Part shown: positions 45,084 to 48,696 of the stretch, piece by piece
Layout of the letters: each line of letters begins with the position of its first letter
Position numbering within the stretch: position 1 is the first letter of the stretch
Assembly: GCF_028368975.1 (NCBI RefSeq)
Contig: NZ_JAQNDM010000002.1
Span: 7,186,425-7,250,424 of the forward strand
Source: Stigmatella ashevillena
GTDB lineage: Bacteria > Myxococcota > Myxococcia > Myxococcales > Myxococcaceae
Reading direction: 5' to 3'
DNA: 64,000 nt
Notes under the pieces: model-generated
The model's input: the letters and a program-made list of their open reading frames with translations, nothing else
Database searches by the model: none
Told to the model about the DNA's origin: nothing
Made by a program: the position numbers and the translations under genes

Positions 45084-46073
45084 ATGGAGACCGCTCTCGT
45101 CCGACCCATCGCACGGCCCTGGTTTCACCTCCTCCTGCTGGTGGTGACGTTGGCCTCGGCGTTTGTCTCATTTGCTTTTTTTCTTGGAGGACAAGGAGAA
45201 GAGCTGGGCTTGCCAGGGTGGGTGGGCGGCTCCCTGGGCTTTGCCCTGGCCTTGCTGTCCATTCTGGGGGCCCACGAGATGGGCCACTATGTGTTGGCCC
45301 GTTTTCACGGCGTGGACACGTCGTTGCCATACTTCATCCCCTTGCCCTTGTTGAGCATGGTGGGGACGCTCGGCGCCGTCATCGTCATCCGGGGGCGCAT
45401 TCCGCACCGCAATGCCCTGGTGGACATTGGGGCCGCGGGACCCTTGGCGGGGCTGGTGGTGGCCGTGCCCGTGCTGCTGTGGGGGTTGGCACACTCGCCC
45501 ATGGTGGACGCGCCCTTGCTGGAGCCGGGGCTCGTGGGCGAGGGCTCCTTGTGGGTGTTGTCGCAGCGGTTGTTCGGGTGGCTCATGCTGCAACTCACCC
45601 AGGCCTCGGCCCCGACAGGGCTGGAGTCCGAGGGCCTCTGGCAGGTGATCTTCGGGGACAGCTTGCTGATGCAGGGCCTGCGCTGGGTGGCGGTGGGGCC
45701 TCTGCCGGCGGGCAAGCAGCTCTACGAGCACCCCGTGGTGGTGGCGGGTTGGTTCGGTCTGCTCGTCACGATGCTGAACCTGATGCCCGTGGGGCAGCTG
45801 GATGGAGGGCACCTTTCGTTCGCGCTGTGGGGGCGGCATGCCCGTTGGGTGGGGCGGTGCGTGGCGCTGGTGCTGCTGCTGCTCACCGTGTTCGCCTCGG
45901 CCTCCTGGGGAGTGTGGTTGCTGGTGACGGTCAAGCTGGTGGGCTTTGGTCATCCGGAGGTGATAGAGCCCGGGGTTCCGCTGAGCCGGGGGCGCAAGTG
46001 GCTCTGCCTCCTGTGTTTCCTCGCATTGGTTGGCTGTGCCATGCCCATTCCCCTGCGTCAGGTGCTGTCATGA
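45084..46073 (+). CDS. M50-family site-2 intramembrane metalloprotease
   Basis: 329 aa from ATG 45084. The first TM is at about 10-32. The zinc motif GAHEMGHYVLARF lies in the next membrane segment (HExxH at ~63-67). The third-ligand region NLMPVGQLDGGH (~232-243) supplies the conserved NxxPxxxLDG Asp. About seven hydrophobic segments are present. Such proteases cut transmembrane anti-sigma factors or other membrane substrates. The stop overlaps the next gene by 4 bp (ATGA). It leads a cluster with a zinc-ribbon membrane protein and a RegB/RegA-like redox system, so a signalling role is an attractive inference. Confidence 0.88.
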   Translation: METALVRPIARPWFHLLLLVVTLASAFVSFAFFLGGQGEELGLPGWVGGSLGFALALLSILGAHEMGHYVLARFHGVDTSLPYFIPLPLLSMVGTLGAVIVIRGRIPHRNALVDIGAAGPLAGLVVAVPVLLWGLAHSPMVDAPLLEPGLVGEGSLWVLSQRLFGWLMLQLTQASAPTGLESEGLWQVIFGDSLLMQGLRWVAVGPLPAGKQLYEHPVVVAGWFGLLVTMLNLMPVGQLDGGHLSFALWGRHARWVGRCVALVLLLLTVFASASWGVWLLVTVKLVGFGHPEVIEPGVPLSRGRKWLCLLCFLALVGCAMPIPLRQVLS

Positions 46074-46804
46074 GGTTCCTCTGTGATGTGTGTGAGCGGC
46101 TCGCGCCCCCGGCCGCTTTCCGGGTGGAGCTGGGGGTCCTGGTGATGACCTGCGCGCGCTGCGGCAAGGAGAGCCGCGCGCGGCCCGAGGAGGCGCTCGT
46201 GGTGGCGGTTACCCAGGAGAGTGAGTCCGTGGCGTCCGTGCAGCAGCGGCTCACCCCGGTGCCGGCCTTGAAGGTGGTGACCCTGCGGCCCTCTGACGAG
46301 CAGGTGCGTGGGGCGGCGGCCATGGCACGCTCGGAGGATCCCTTCGCCGTGCCCCCGGGTTTTTGCCCCAAGTGCATCGCGGTGCGCCGGGCGGGTGCGG
46401 AGTCCTGCGCCGCCTGTGGGCTGGTCTACGCCAACTTCAGTCCCGAGGAGCAGCGTCCCTCGGAGGACTTGCAGGCCGCGTGGCTGTCCGTCCTGGGCCG
46501 CTGGGACGACCGCGATGCGCACGACCGGTTGCTGTCGCTGGCGGTGGGGCGCGGCGAACTGGCCATGGCGGGGCGCCTGTACCGCATCCGCCTGGCCCAG
46601 GCGCCCGAGGACCTGTATGCCCAGCGCGGACGGGACGAGGTGGTCCGGCTCGCCTCGGCCTCGCCGGTGGCGTTCGCGCCCACCTCCCCGGCCGGCTTGT
46701 CCTCGAGGACGCAGCTCGTGGTGGCGATCATCTTCTTTCTCTTTCTCCTGGTGTCGGCGCTGCTCATCTTCCGGCAGTTCCGGCTGACGTTCGGGAGGCC
46801 TTGA
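46070..46804 (+). CDS. Zinc-ribbon membrane protein
   Basis: 244 aa from ATG 46070, overlapping the protease stop. Two CxxC pairs occur at the N-terminus (FLCDVCERLAPP and TCARCGKESRA) and another pair further on (FCPKCIAV and SCAACGLVYANF), forming two zinc ribbons. A helical, TPR-like middle (WLSVLGRWDDRDAHDRLLSLAV; ELAMAGRLYRIRLAQAPED) precedes one C-terminal TM (VVAIIFFLFLLVSALLIF), so the ribbons face the cytoplasm if tail-anchored. The overlap with the protease and the one-base gap to the sensor kinase suggest a common operon and possibly a common complex. Confidence 0.75.
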   Translation: MRFLCDVCERLAPPAAFRVELGVLVMTCARCGKESRARPEEALVVAVTQESESVASVQQRLTPVPALKVVTLRPSDEQVRGAAAMARSEDPFAVPPGFCPKCIAVRRAGAESCAACGLVYANFSPEEQRPSEDLQAAWLSVLGRWDDRDAHDRLLSLAVGRGELAMAGRLYRIRLAQAPEDLYAQRGRDEVVRLASASPVAFAPTSPAGLSSRTQLVVAIIFFLFLLVSALLIFRQFRLTFGRP

Positions 46805-46805
46805 G

Positions 46806-48125
46806 GTGCGGGACGCGCACGCCATCAACCTGTCATGGTTGCTGCGCCTGCGGTGGGGTGCCGTGGTGGCGCAGGCGGCGCTCATCCTGGGCGCGCACTT
46901 CGTGCTGGAGATGCATCTGCCGCTGGTGCCGCTGTTCGCCACCATCGGCGTGGCGGTGCTGAGCAACGCGGCGCTGGGCGTGTGGAGCCGGAAGCCCCGA
47001 GCGGTCCACGGGTGGACGCTGTGGGGGGTGATGGCGCTGGACGTGGTGCTGCTCACCGTGCTGCTGGCCTTCAGCGGTGGGCCGTTCAATCCCTTCAGCA
47101 CGCTGTACCTGGTGCACATTGCGCTGGCGGCGGTGGTGCTGCGGGCCCGGTGGACGTGGACGCTGGTGGCCCTGGCCCTGGGGTGCTTCGGCGCGCTTTT
47201 CGTCCGCCACCTGTGGATGCCGGGGGAGGATGCGCACGCCGCGCACCACCACATGGATGCGGTGCGCATGCACCTGGAGGGCATGTGGGCGGCCTTCGGG
47301 CTGGCCGCGGCCGTCATCGTCTACTTCGTCCAGCGCGTCACCCGGGCGCTGGCCGAGCGCGAAGCTGAGCTGGATGCCTCCCGCGAGGTGACGGCCCGCA
47401 ACGAGAAGCTGGCCGCCCTGGCCACGCTGGCCGCCGGGGCCGCGCACGAGCTGTCCACGCCGCTGTCCACCATCGCCGTGGTGGCCCGGGAGCTGGAGCG
47501 CCGGGGGGAGCTGTCGCCCGCAAGCCGCGAGGATGCACAGCTCATTCGCCAGCAGGTGGCGCGCTGCCGGGACATCCTCGTCCAGATGGCCGCCGATGCC
47601 GGGGCGAGCCACGGCGAGGCCTTCGTTCCCCTGTCCCCCGCACTGTTGGTGGACGGGGCCTTGGAGGGGCTGAGAGGCCGCGAGCGGGTGCAGGTGGACG
47701 TGCAAGGCGCTCCGCCGGGCGAGGTGATGTCGGTGCCCGCACGGGCCCTCACCCACGCCATCCGGGGGGTGGTGAAGAACGCCCTCCAGGCCTCCTCCGA
47801 GAGCGCGCGTGTGGAGCTGGTGTTGACCCGGCAGGAGGCGGGTTGGCGGCTGCTCGTGAAGGACGAGGGCTCGGGGATGGCCGCGGAGGTGCTGTCCCGG
47901 GCGGGCGAGCCGTTCTTCACCACGAAGCCGCAGGGCGAGGGGATGGGGCTGGGCCTCTTCCTGGCCCGCGCCGTGCTGGATCAGCTCGGAGGGAGGTTGG
48001 AGGTCCGCTCGGTGCCGGGGAAGGGGACGCACGTGGAGCTGACGTGGCCGGCGCGGAGCCTGCGACAATTTGACCCGTTGTCCCCCGTGGCGCGGGGGGC
48101 GAGCCTCCTGGAGCCGGGCACCTGA
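46806..48125 (+). CDS. regB: RegB/PrrB-type redox sensor histidine kinase
   Basis: 439 aa from GTG 46806, one base after the upstream stop. The N-terminal half has about six TM helices, and residues 91-97 read GGPFNPF, matching the GGxxNPF quinone-site heptapeptide of RegB/PrrB. The H-box AAGAAHELSTPLSTIAVV puts the phospho-acceptor at His214. Cys254 in QQVARCRDIL is exactly 40 residues later, the spacing of His225 and redox-active Cys265 in Rhodobacter RegB. HATPase_c (NALQASS, DEGSGMAAEVL, FFTTKPQGEGMGLGL) completes it. It should phosphorylate the regulator encoded 13 bp downstream when quinone or thiol redox state falls. Confidence 0.88.
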   Translation: MRDAHAINLSWLLRLRWGAVVAQAALILGAHFVLEMHLPLVPLFATIGVAVLSNAALGVWSRKPRAVHGWTLWGVMALDVVLLTVLLAFSGGPFNPFSTLYLVHIALAAVVLRARWTWTLVALALGCFGALFVRHLWMPGEDAHAAHHHMDAVRMHLEGMWAAFGLAAAVIVYFVQRVTRALAEREAELDASREVTARNEKLAALATLAAGAAHELSTPLSTIAVVARELERRGELSPASREDAQLIRQQVARCRDILVQMAADAGASHGEAFVPLSPALLVDGALEGLRGRERVQVDVQGAPPGEVMSVPARALTHAIRGVVKNALQASSESARVELVLTRQEAGWRLLVKDEGSGMAAEVLSRAGEPFFTTKPQGEGMGLGLFLARAVLDQLGGRLEVRSVPGKGTHVELTWPARSLRQFDPLSPVARGASLLEPGT

Positions 48126-48138
48126 GCCTGGTCTCGCC

Positions 48139-48696
48139 ATGGCCCCTTCTCGCAACCCCGACGCCCCTTCGCTGCTGCTGGTGGACGACGACACGGTCTT
48201 TCGCGAGCGGCTGGCGCGTGCCTTCCGGGAGCGGGGCTTCGAGGTGGCGACCGCGGGTTCCGTGGAGGAAGGGCTCGCGGCGGCCCAGCACGAGTCCCCG
48301 GAGCTGGCGGTGGTGGACCTGAGGATGCCGGGGCGGGGCGGGCTGGAGCTGGTGCGCGAGCTGCGGGCGCTGGATGCCTCCACGCGCATCATCGTCCTCA
48401 CGGGCTACGGCAGCATCGCCACCGCCGTGGAGGCGGTGCGGCTGGGGGCGCTCAACTACATTCCGAAGCCCGCCGACGTGGATGATCTGCTGGCGGCGCT
48501 GGCCCGGGGCCTGGGAGCGCCCAGTCCTCCGGTGGCAGAGGATTTTCATGCGCCCTCTCTCGCCCGCGCCGAGTGGGAGCACATCCAGCGCGTGCTGGCC
48601 GACTGCGAGGGCAACATCTCGGAGGCGGCGCGGCGGCTGGGGCTCCACCGGCGCTCCCTCCAGCGCAAACTCCAGAAATATCCCCCCGCGCAGTGA
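48139..48696 (+). CDS. regA: RegA/PrrA/ActR-type response regulator
   Basis: 185 aa from ATG 48139. The receiver domain (about 10-125) carries the acidic pocket LVDDDTVF, phospho-acceptor Asp in VVDLRMPGRGG (~57), the switch Thr in VLTGYGS and Lys in IPKPADVDDLL. The C-terminal Fis-type HTH (about 145-180: CEGNISEAARRLGLHRRSLQRKLQK) is the hallmark of RegA/PrrA, with the conserved HRR-LQRKL recognition helix. It is the cognate partner of the upstream RegB-like kinase and probably controls genes for respiration and redox balance. Confidence 0.9.
   Translation: MAPSRNPDAPSLLLVDDDTVFRERLARAFRERGFEVATAGSVEEGLAAAQHESPELAVVDLRMPGRGGLELVRELRALDASTRIIVLTGYGSIATAVEAVRLGALNYIPKPADVDDLLAALARGLGAPSPPVAEDFHAPSLARAEWEHIQRVLADCEGNISEAARRLGLHRRSLQRKLQKYPPAQ

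Follow-up and report, generated by a model that had tools for sequence, protein, structure and literature searches.

Two adjacent genes in a 64,000-nucleotide stretch of the genome of the soil myxobacterium Stigmatella ashevillena (referred to here as the window) encode a sensor histidine kinase and a response regulator which, as judged from their sequences, are a real but divergent RegB/RegA-type pair. RegB/RegA, a redox switch known chiefly from purple bacteria that use ubiquinone, has been described as a proteobacterial ubiquinone rheostat. In the present case, it is considered likely that the divergent pair serves as a menaquinone- and thiol-responsive system for respiration-linked genes, with menaquinone being the presumed bound quinone and respiratory genes the putative regulon. 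The features on which this reading is based are listed in Table 1.

Table 1. Positions within the window of the kinase and regulator genes, of the two genes upstream and of the residues discussed in the text.
Feature	Position	Strand	Remarks
M50 (site-2 type) metalloprotease gene, upstream	45084..46073	+	Pfam
CxxC-rich, probably zinc-ribbon protein with hydrophobic C-terminal segment	46070..46804	+	No Pfam match
RegB-type six-TM sensor histidine kinase	46806..48125	+	439 aa, GTG start, stop included; NF033792, HisKA, HATPase_c
GGPFNPF, predicted quinone-site heptapeptide, residues 91-97, between TM3 and TM4	47076..47096	+	
His104 in TM4, candidate quinone-specificity position	47115..47117	+	
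His-rich TM5-TM6 loop, residues 137-157 (H144, H147-149, H156)	47214..47276	+	Presumed periplasmic side
His214, predicted autophosphorylation site	47445..47447	+	H-box AAHELSTPL
Cys254, redox-box cysteine, dimerisation helix	47565..47567	+	RCRDIL; aligned with ActS Cys
RegA/ActR/PrrA-type response regulator	48139..48696	+	185 aa, ATG start, stop included; NF033791
Asp60, predicted phospho-acceptor	48316..48318	+	Present in 56/56 aligned regulators
Fis-type HTH (HTH_8), residues 141-181	48559..48681	+	
Cys156, sole Cys of the regulator	48604..48606	+	Aligned with ActR Cys

Family Identity of the Kinase and the Regulator

The top NCBIfam model for the kinase was NF033792 (ActS/PrrB/RegB; 280.2 bits over residues 4-419, as compared to a curated equivalog cut-off of 350 bits), while that for the regulator was NF033791 (ActR/PrrA/RegA; 195.5 bits over residues 11-183, as compared to a cut-off of 250 bits). 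Because both proteins lie under these cut-offs, they are assigned to a divergent lineage rather than to canonical RegB/RegA. The anatomy of the pair lends good support to a RegB/RegA-like mode of action, although canonical membership is not claimed. As such, the RegB/RegA system named in the initial annotation is borne out by the near full-length model matches, the gene pairing, the heptapeptide, the cysteine and the HTH, but not at the level of the two curated cut-offs. With scores that fall under the naming cut-offs, automatic annotation probably hides the pair; even better-matching plasmid relatives carry only the name 'ATP-binding protein.' In this genome, the kinase model yielded one match at 1e-40 (8 of 200 candidates scored) and the regulator model one match at 1e-30 (150 of 241 candidates scored).

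Direct comparisons were made with Sinorhizobium (S.) meliloti ActS/ActR and Azospirillum RegB/RegA, with likeness to the Rhodobacter proteins being taken from published descriptions. The kinase is 29% identical to S. meliloti ActS, whereas the regulator shares 54% identity with ActR (97/181 columns) and 51% identity with Azospirillum RegA. The earlier assignment of a RegA-type Fis HTH to the regulator was upheld, given the receiver and HTH_8 domains and the identity to ActR; the receiver with its Asp, a Pro-containing linker and a Fis HTH with HRR(T/S)LQR are all present, and Pfam detected no sigma-54 AAA+ domain. A full-length relative of the regulator has been solved (3rqi).

For the kinase, an AlphaFold2 model prepared from a 30-row alignment (mean pLDDT 84.3, pTM 0.58) predicted six N-terminal helices, corresponding to residues 4-32, 40-61, 69-90, 96-111, 114-135 and 147 onwards, with loop residues 137-145 being modelled at a pLDDT below 50. 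The heptapeptide, confirmed at residues 91-97 as given in the initial annotation, aligns with that of RegB and sits where the third predicted helix gives way to the fourth. Among 38 sequence matches to solved structures, none corresponded to the RegB membrane domain, and the best 50 of 519 Foldseek fold matches likewise covered kinase cytoplasmic or soluble parts, with no RegB membrane domain among them.

The descriptions of the Rhodobacter capsulatus system (RegB/RegA; PrrB/PrrA and ActS/ActR elsewhere) in PMC9147068 and PMC8191878 point to shared features at each level, namely, six TM helices, GGxxNPF, the H-box and the redox-box cysteine in the kinase, the receiver, linker, Fis HTH and Cys156 in the regulator, and adjacent genes. 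Going by these literature descriptions, kinase Cys254 would be the counterpart of R. capsulatus Cys265. By contrast, the present pair differs from canonical RegB/RegA not only in its scores and in its low identity to ActS but also in its His-rich TM5-TM6 loop with His156, and, unlike the hosts described for RegB/RegA, its myxobacterial host is without recognisable ubiquinone genes. Moreover, no SenC/PrrC-type domain was found in the four neighbouring genes scanned with Pfam.

Among the open-licence papers listed, none dealt with a myxobacterial RegB/RegA system or with a RegB that senses menaquinone; in the passages considered of PMC3534657 and PMC11406998, RegB is named only in the reference lists. 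The Myxococcus xanthus NmpRSTU system, described in PMC11841059, is likewise an oxygen- and respiration-linked two-component control in a myxobacterium but relies on a haem protoglobin sensor and a multi-component relay; neither RegB nor quinone is mentioned in the main text of that paper. The pair considered here would also give fruiting-body-building myxobacteria a membrane-based respiratory sensor beside the haem sensor NmpU.

Conservation and Distribution of the Pair

With both strands of the 10.95 Mb genome considered, DNA able to encode GGxxNPF was found at three sites, one of them in the kinase gene, as compared to five for the reversed pattern that served as control. When 20 other kinases of this genome were examined (ranks 2-19 of 145 matches, 144 of them besides the query kinase, together with the lower-ranked L203 and L204, included as their matches extended into the N-terminal part), the heptapeptide was seen in none, whereas a Cys at the position aligned with Cys254 was seen in two (L190 and L197). 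Given these counts, the cysteine on its own says little and the combination of heptapeptide and cysteine says much.

Conservation was assessed in 50 myxobacterial loci, comprising the present locus and 49 others chosen by us so as to represent most of the genera for which places were listed, with one to three genomes each and with both copies being included in four genomes. GGxxNPF was exact in 47 of these kinases, and Asp79 was found in all 50. Cys254 is also conserved, being present in 47/50 and absent in 3/50. The earlier statement that this cysteine lies 40 residues past His214 is true of the present protein, but the value itself is not diagnostic, as it was found in only 6 of the 50 kinases. 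Spacing of exactly 40 was hence rejected as a marker, with the distance ranging from 38 to 49 in the myxobacterial kinases and from 36 to 49 across all groups. In the 30-row alignment, whose rows were picked by us from five phyla, D79, G91, G92, N95-F97, H214 and C254 are invariant. One kinase, L041 of genome G048, has lost the heptapeptide (GHDARVF) and kept the redox cysteine, meaning that the two inputs are separable. At this locus, the RegA-like gene is found on the opposite strand; in the remaining 49 of the 50 loci, it is on the same strand (with that of L053 being partial).

At regulator position 156, Cys was found in 39 of the 50 myxobacterial loci, with Ser (7), Ala (2) and Val (2) accounting for the others. 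In the Pseudomonadota among the best 80 named loci, this position is mostly Thr in the alpha group (11/14, as opposed to 5/20 in the beta/gamma/zeta group), with Asn in 9/20 of the beta/gamma/zeta loci and Cys in only 3/34 overall. R. capsulatus RegA Cys156, described in PMC9147068 as invariant in group 1 orthologues and placed just before the HTH, forms a Cu2+-promoted intermolecular disulfide, with the covalent dimer being able to bind DNA.

The view that the system is mainly alphaproteobacterial and odd in one myxobacterium did not hold. The RegB model at an E value of 1e-40 matched 123 of 193 Myxococcota genomes, with none of the 193 exceeding the curated cut-off, and further phyla are represented as well. 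Specifically, relatives in Planctomycetota, Acidobacteriota and Verrucomicrobiota were found among the best 80 of at least 594 matching stretches from named genomes. Both heptapeptide and cysteine are present in each of the 16 kinases attributed to these phyla, a count that is not an unbiased rate because the kinases were kept for their similarity to the query. A RegA-like gene directly follows the kinase in 74 of these 80 loci; of the other six, none was seen in L107, L129, L140, L142 and L145, with the sequences of L107 and L142 ending shortly after the kinase, while L171 gave a weak unrelated hit. Many genomes of genus g6, presumably Myxococcus, contain two kinase copies, and in two g6 genomes, two RegB/RegA-type pairs each (L042/L043 and L044/L045) were seen on different tree branches.

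A quick tree was calculated for 84 of 136 kinases, picked by us; it is unrooted and relies on SH-aLRT values only, with no bootstrap, and 27 of its 81 inner branches are open, with L087, L144 and L071 being long branches. In this tree, the kinase lies inside the Myxococcota group beside L035, to which it is 95% identical, a position that argues against a recent alphaproteobacterial origin; a recent transfer from Alphaproteobacteria was thus not supported. The canonical alphaproteobacterial kinases L084 and L085 are set apart on a separate long branch. A second type of pair found in Pseudomonadota, which is probably RoxS/RoxR-like, is confined to one side of a branch with a support of 97. Pairs of this second type (Azospirillum, Agrobacterium, Thioclava) share GGxxNPF, the redox cysteine, kinase His156 and an adjacent regulator with the present pair, with their kinases being 29-35% identical to that considered here, but differ in having Thr at regulator position 156 and Gln or Pro at kinase residue 104. 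Separately, the kinases of L106, L124 and L108 are 43-53% identical to the present protein, i.e., at the Myxococcota level; these records, from Comamonas sp. KCTC 72670 and an 'Alphaproteobacteria' MAG, are possibly mislabelled or contaminated.

Quinone Biosynthesis Genes and the Predicted Ligand

The genome encodes MenD (477 bits, cut-off 244) and, some 1.3 kb away, MenA (344 bits, cut-off 264). Of its eight UbiA-superfamily matches, the six scanned (all except L094 and L097) included no UbiA, with the best UbiA score among them, 65.9 bits, being obtained with haem O synthase. Direct searching of the genome with the UbiA model gave no match at 1e-30, none of 30 UbiG matches exceeded the cut-off (best, 60 bits), and the same was true of 18 Ubi-hydroxylase matches (best, 127.5 bits). 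The host would accordingly be one that lacks ubiquinone, as called from gene models at their cut-offs. Since menA and menD are present and no UbiA, UbiG or Ubi-hydroxylase exceeds the cut-off, it is most likely menaquinone that the conserved quinone site encounters, and ubiquinone, the ligand described for RegB, is probably not the ligand here. In this respect, the ubiquinone-using host associated with RegB/RegA is replaced here by one with menA and menD, and ubiquinone use would characterise the hosts examined to date and not the RegB/RegA proteins themselves.

This situation is not confined to the present genome. UbiA exceeded the cut-off in only one of the 193 Myxococcota genomes, namely, G017, a genome outside the set of 123 that carry the kinase; weaker UbiA matches (109-118 bits) were found in three more, two of which (G094 and G136) carry the kinase. 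Across 20 kinase-bearing named genomes, UbiA exceeded the cut-off in 6/6 Pseudomonadota and in 0/14 others, with sub-cut-off UbiA-like matches (87-135 bits) in 10 of these 14, several of which are MAGs and may be incomplete. The quinone site of RegB is thus retained in hosts that would not be expected to contain ubiquinone. In RegB, the heptapeptide is reported to be where quinone binds, and in RoxS, it has served as the site for docking ubiquinone (PMC8191878 and PMC10525716). The occurrence of the pair across several phyla in tested genomes without UbiA over the cut-off raises the question of whether GGxxNPF is a general quinone site, and makes testable the question of which residues choose between ubiquinone and menaquinone.

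In the latter regard, residue 104 is His in 36, Asn in 35, Gln in 12 and another residue in 13 of 96 kinases from a Myxococcota, Planctomycetota, Acidobacteriota and Verrucomicrobiota set in which a few hosts are mislabelled or unplaced, as opposed to Gln in 21 and Pro in 19 of 40 Pseudomonadota kinases. The contrast at Trp11 is larger, with Trp being found in 91 of the 96 and not being among the three commonest residues in the 40 Pseudomonadota kinases. Because these differences track ancestry as well as quinone type, residue 104 and Trp11 are candidates only. It is tentatively proposed, with rather more doubt than conviction, that the pairs from the four phyla form a distinct menaquinone-tuned RegB/RegA lineage, in which the same GGxxNPF turn is retained and residue 104 helps read the lower-potential menaquinone pool, leading to a different redox set point. 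Were this so, then the presence of regulator Cys156 also in canonical RegA would make the quinone-plus-thiol switch older than its ubiquinone version.

Proposed Mechanism, Other Explanations and Gene Neighbourhood

In RegB, the quinol-bound kinase is active, whereas oxidised quinone or an oxidised Cys lowers activity (PMC9147068). By analogy, a reduced menaquinone pool, as expected when respiration is limited, would lead the kinase to autophosphorylate at His214, from where the phosphate would pass to Asp60 of the regulator. Autophosphorylation would fall with oxidised quinone and also when the dimerisation-helix residue Cys254 is oxidised. Once phosphorylated, the regulator would bind DNA via its Fis HTH and adjust respiratory and energy genes, with Cys156 possibly making dimerisation responsive to oxygen or copper as a further input, in the manner of R. 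capsulatus RegA. Published RegA DNA sites are degenerate (PMC5506826).

Other explanations of the same features were considered. A pair of RegB/RegA-type by descent might take its main signal, be it oxygen, copper or disulfide stress, from the cytoplasmic thiol of Cys254 together with regulator Cys156, with the heptapeptide being a structural TM3-TM4 turn for packing. This is deemed unlikely, even though the Gly/Pro-rich turn and the invariant D79 are kept also in genomes without UbiA over the cut-off, which fits a structural turn, and each of the two cysteines is retained in most myxobacterial loci. Such a reading has to contend with the reported assignment of the heptapeptide as a quinone site in RegB and RoxS, with the invariance of its N, P and F, which matches that of catalytic residues in the 30-row alignment, and with the L041 kinase, in which the cysteine persists where the heptapeptide does not. 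Considerably less probable is that a RegB-shaped kinase now senses periplasmic copper, zinc or haem via the TM5-TM6 loop, with quinone and thiol being secondary. The loop contains His144, 147, 148, 149 and 156, and His156 is found in 45/50 myxobacterial kinases, with an i/i+7 His pair ending at this residue in 33/50; the canonical alphaproteobacterial kinases L084 and L085 do not present this feature. Nonetheless, His156 also occurs in 15/20 beta/gamma/zeta and 6/14 alpha kinases and so is not specific to myxobacteria, while the rest of the loop is variable in length and, at residues 137-145, modelled at low confidence. It is possible that the His-rich loop, with its His pair seven residues apart, is a metal or haem site.

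Finally, there is very little to be expected of the idea that the genes encode an ordinary kinase/regulator pair of another family, such as one that is PilS-like or ZraS-like, with the heptapeptide having arisen by chance. A sub-threshold Pfam match to 6TM_PilS (24.1 bits, cut-off 27) and the cytoplasmic part of ZraS as nearest solved structure could be cited in its favor. Yet, the ActS/PrrB/RegB model is by far the best NCBIfam match and runs nearly the length of the kinase, the motif lies at the aligned position, and the regulator combines the lack of a sigma-54 AAA+ domain with 54% identity to ActR. The preferred reading remains that of a divergent RegB/RegA-type system, probably responsive to both menaquinone and thiol state.

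Immediately upstream of the kinase gene, the stop codon of the CxxC-protein gene (46802-46804) ends one base before the kinase start, and this gene in turn overlaps the M50 gene. The two upstream genes are found beside the pair in only 7 of the 94 loci listed (the present locus and the near loci L035, L036, L047, L048, L055 and L057; phmmer E 1e-8). Elsewhere, the neighbours vary, with 20 neighbouring proteins from eight loci yielding, for example, a MauG-type peroxidase, an AhpC/TSA fragment, a RoxA-like cytochrome and AbiE genes. No respiratory operon conserved among myxobacteria was found, there being no consistent respiratory theme among the neighbours scanned. For this reason, the putative respiratory regulon is one carried over from relatives. 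Support for a respiratory role in the wider family comes from the second-type pairs, since three of these (L086, L088 and L089, from Azospirillum, Thioclava and Agrobacterium replicons) adjoin cyoABCD-SURF1, cydDC or cytochrome genes; a fourth second-type record, from Pseudoalteromonas, has no respiratory neighbour. The pairs of L086, L088 and L089 are annotated merely as 'ATP-binding protein' and 'response regulator.'
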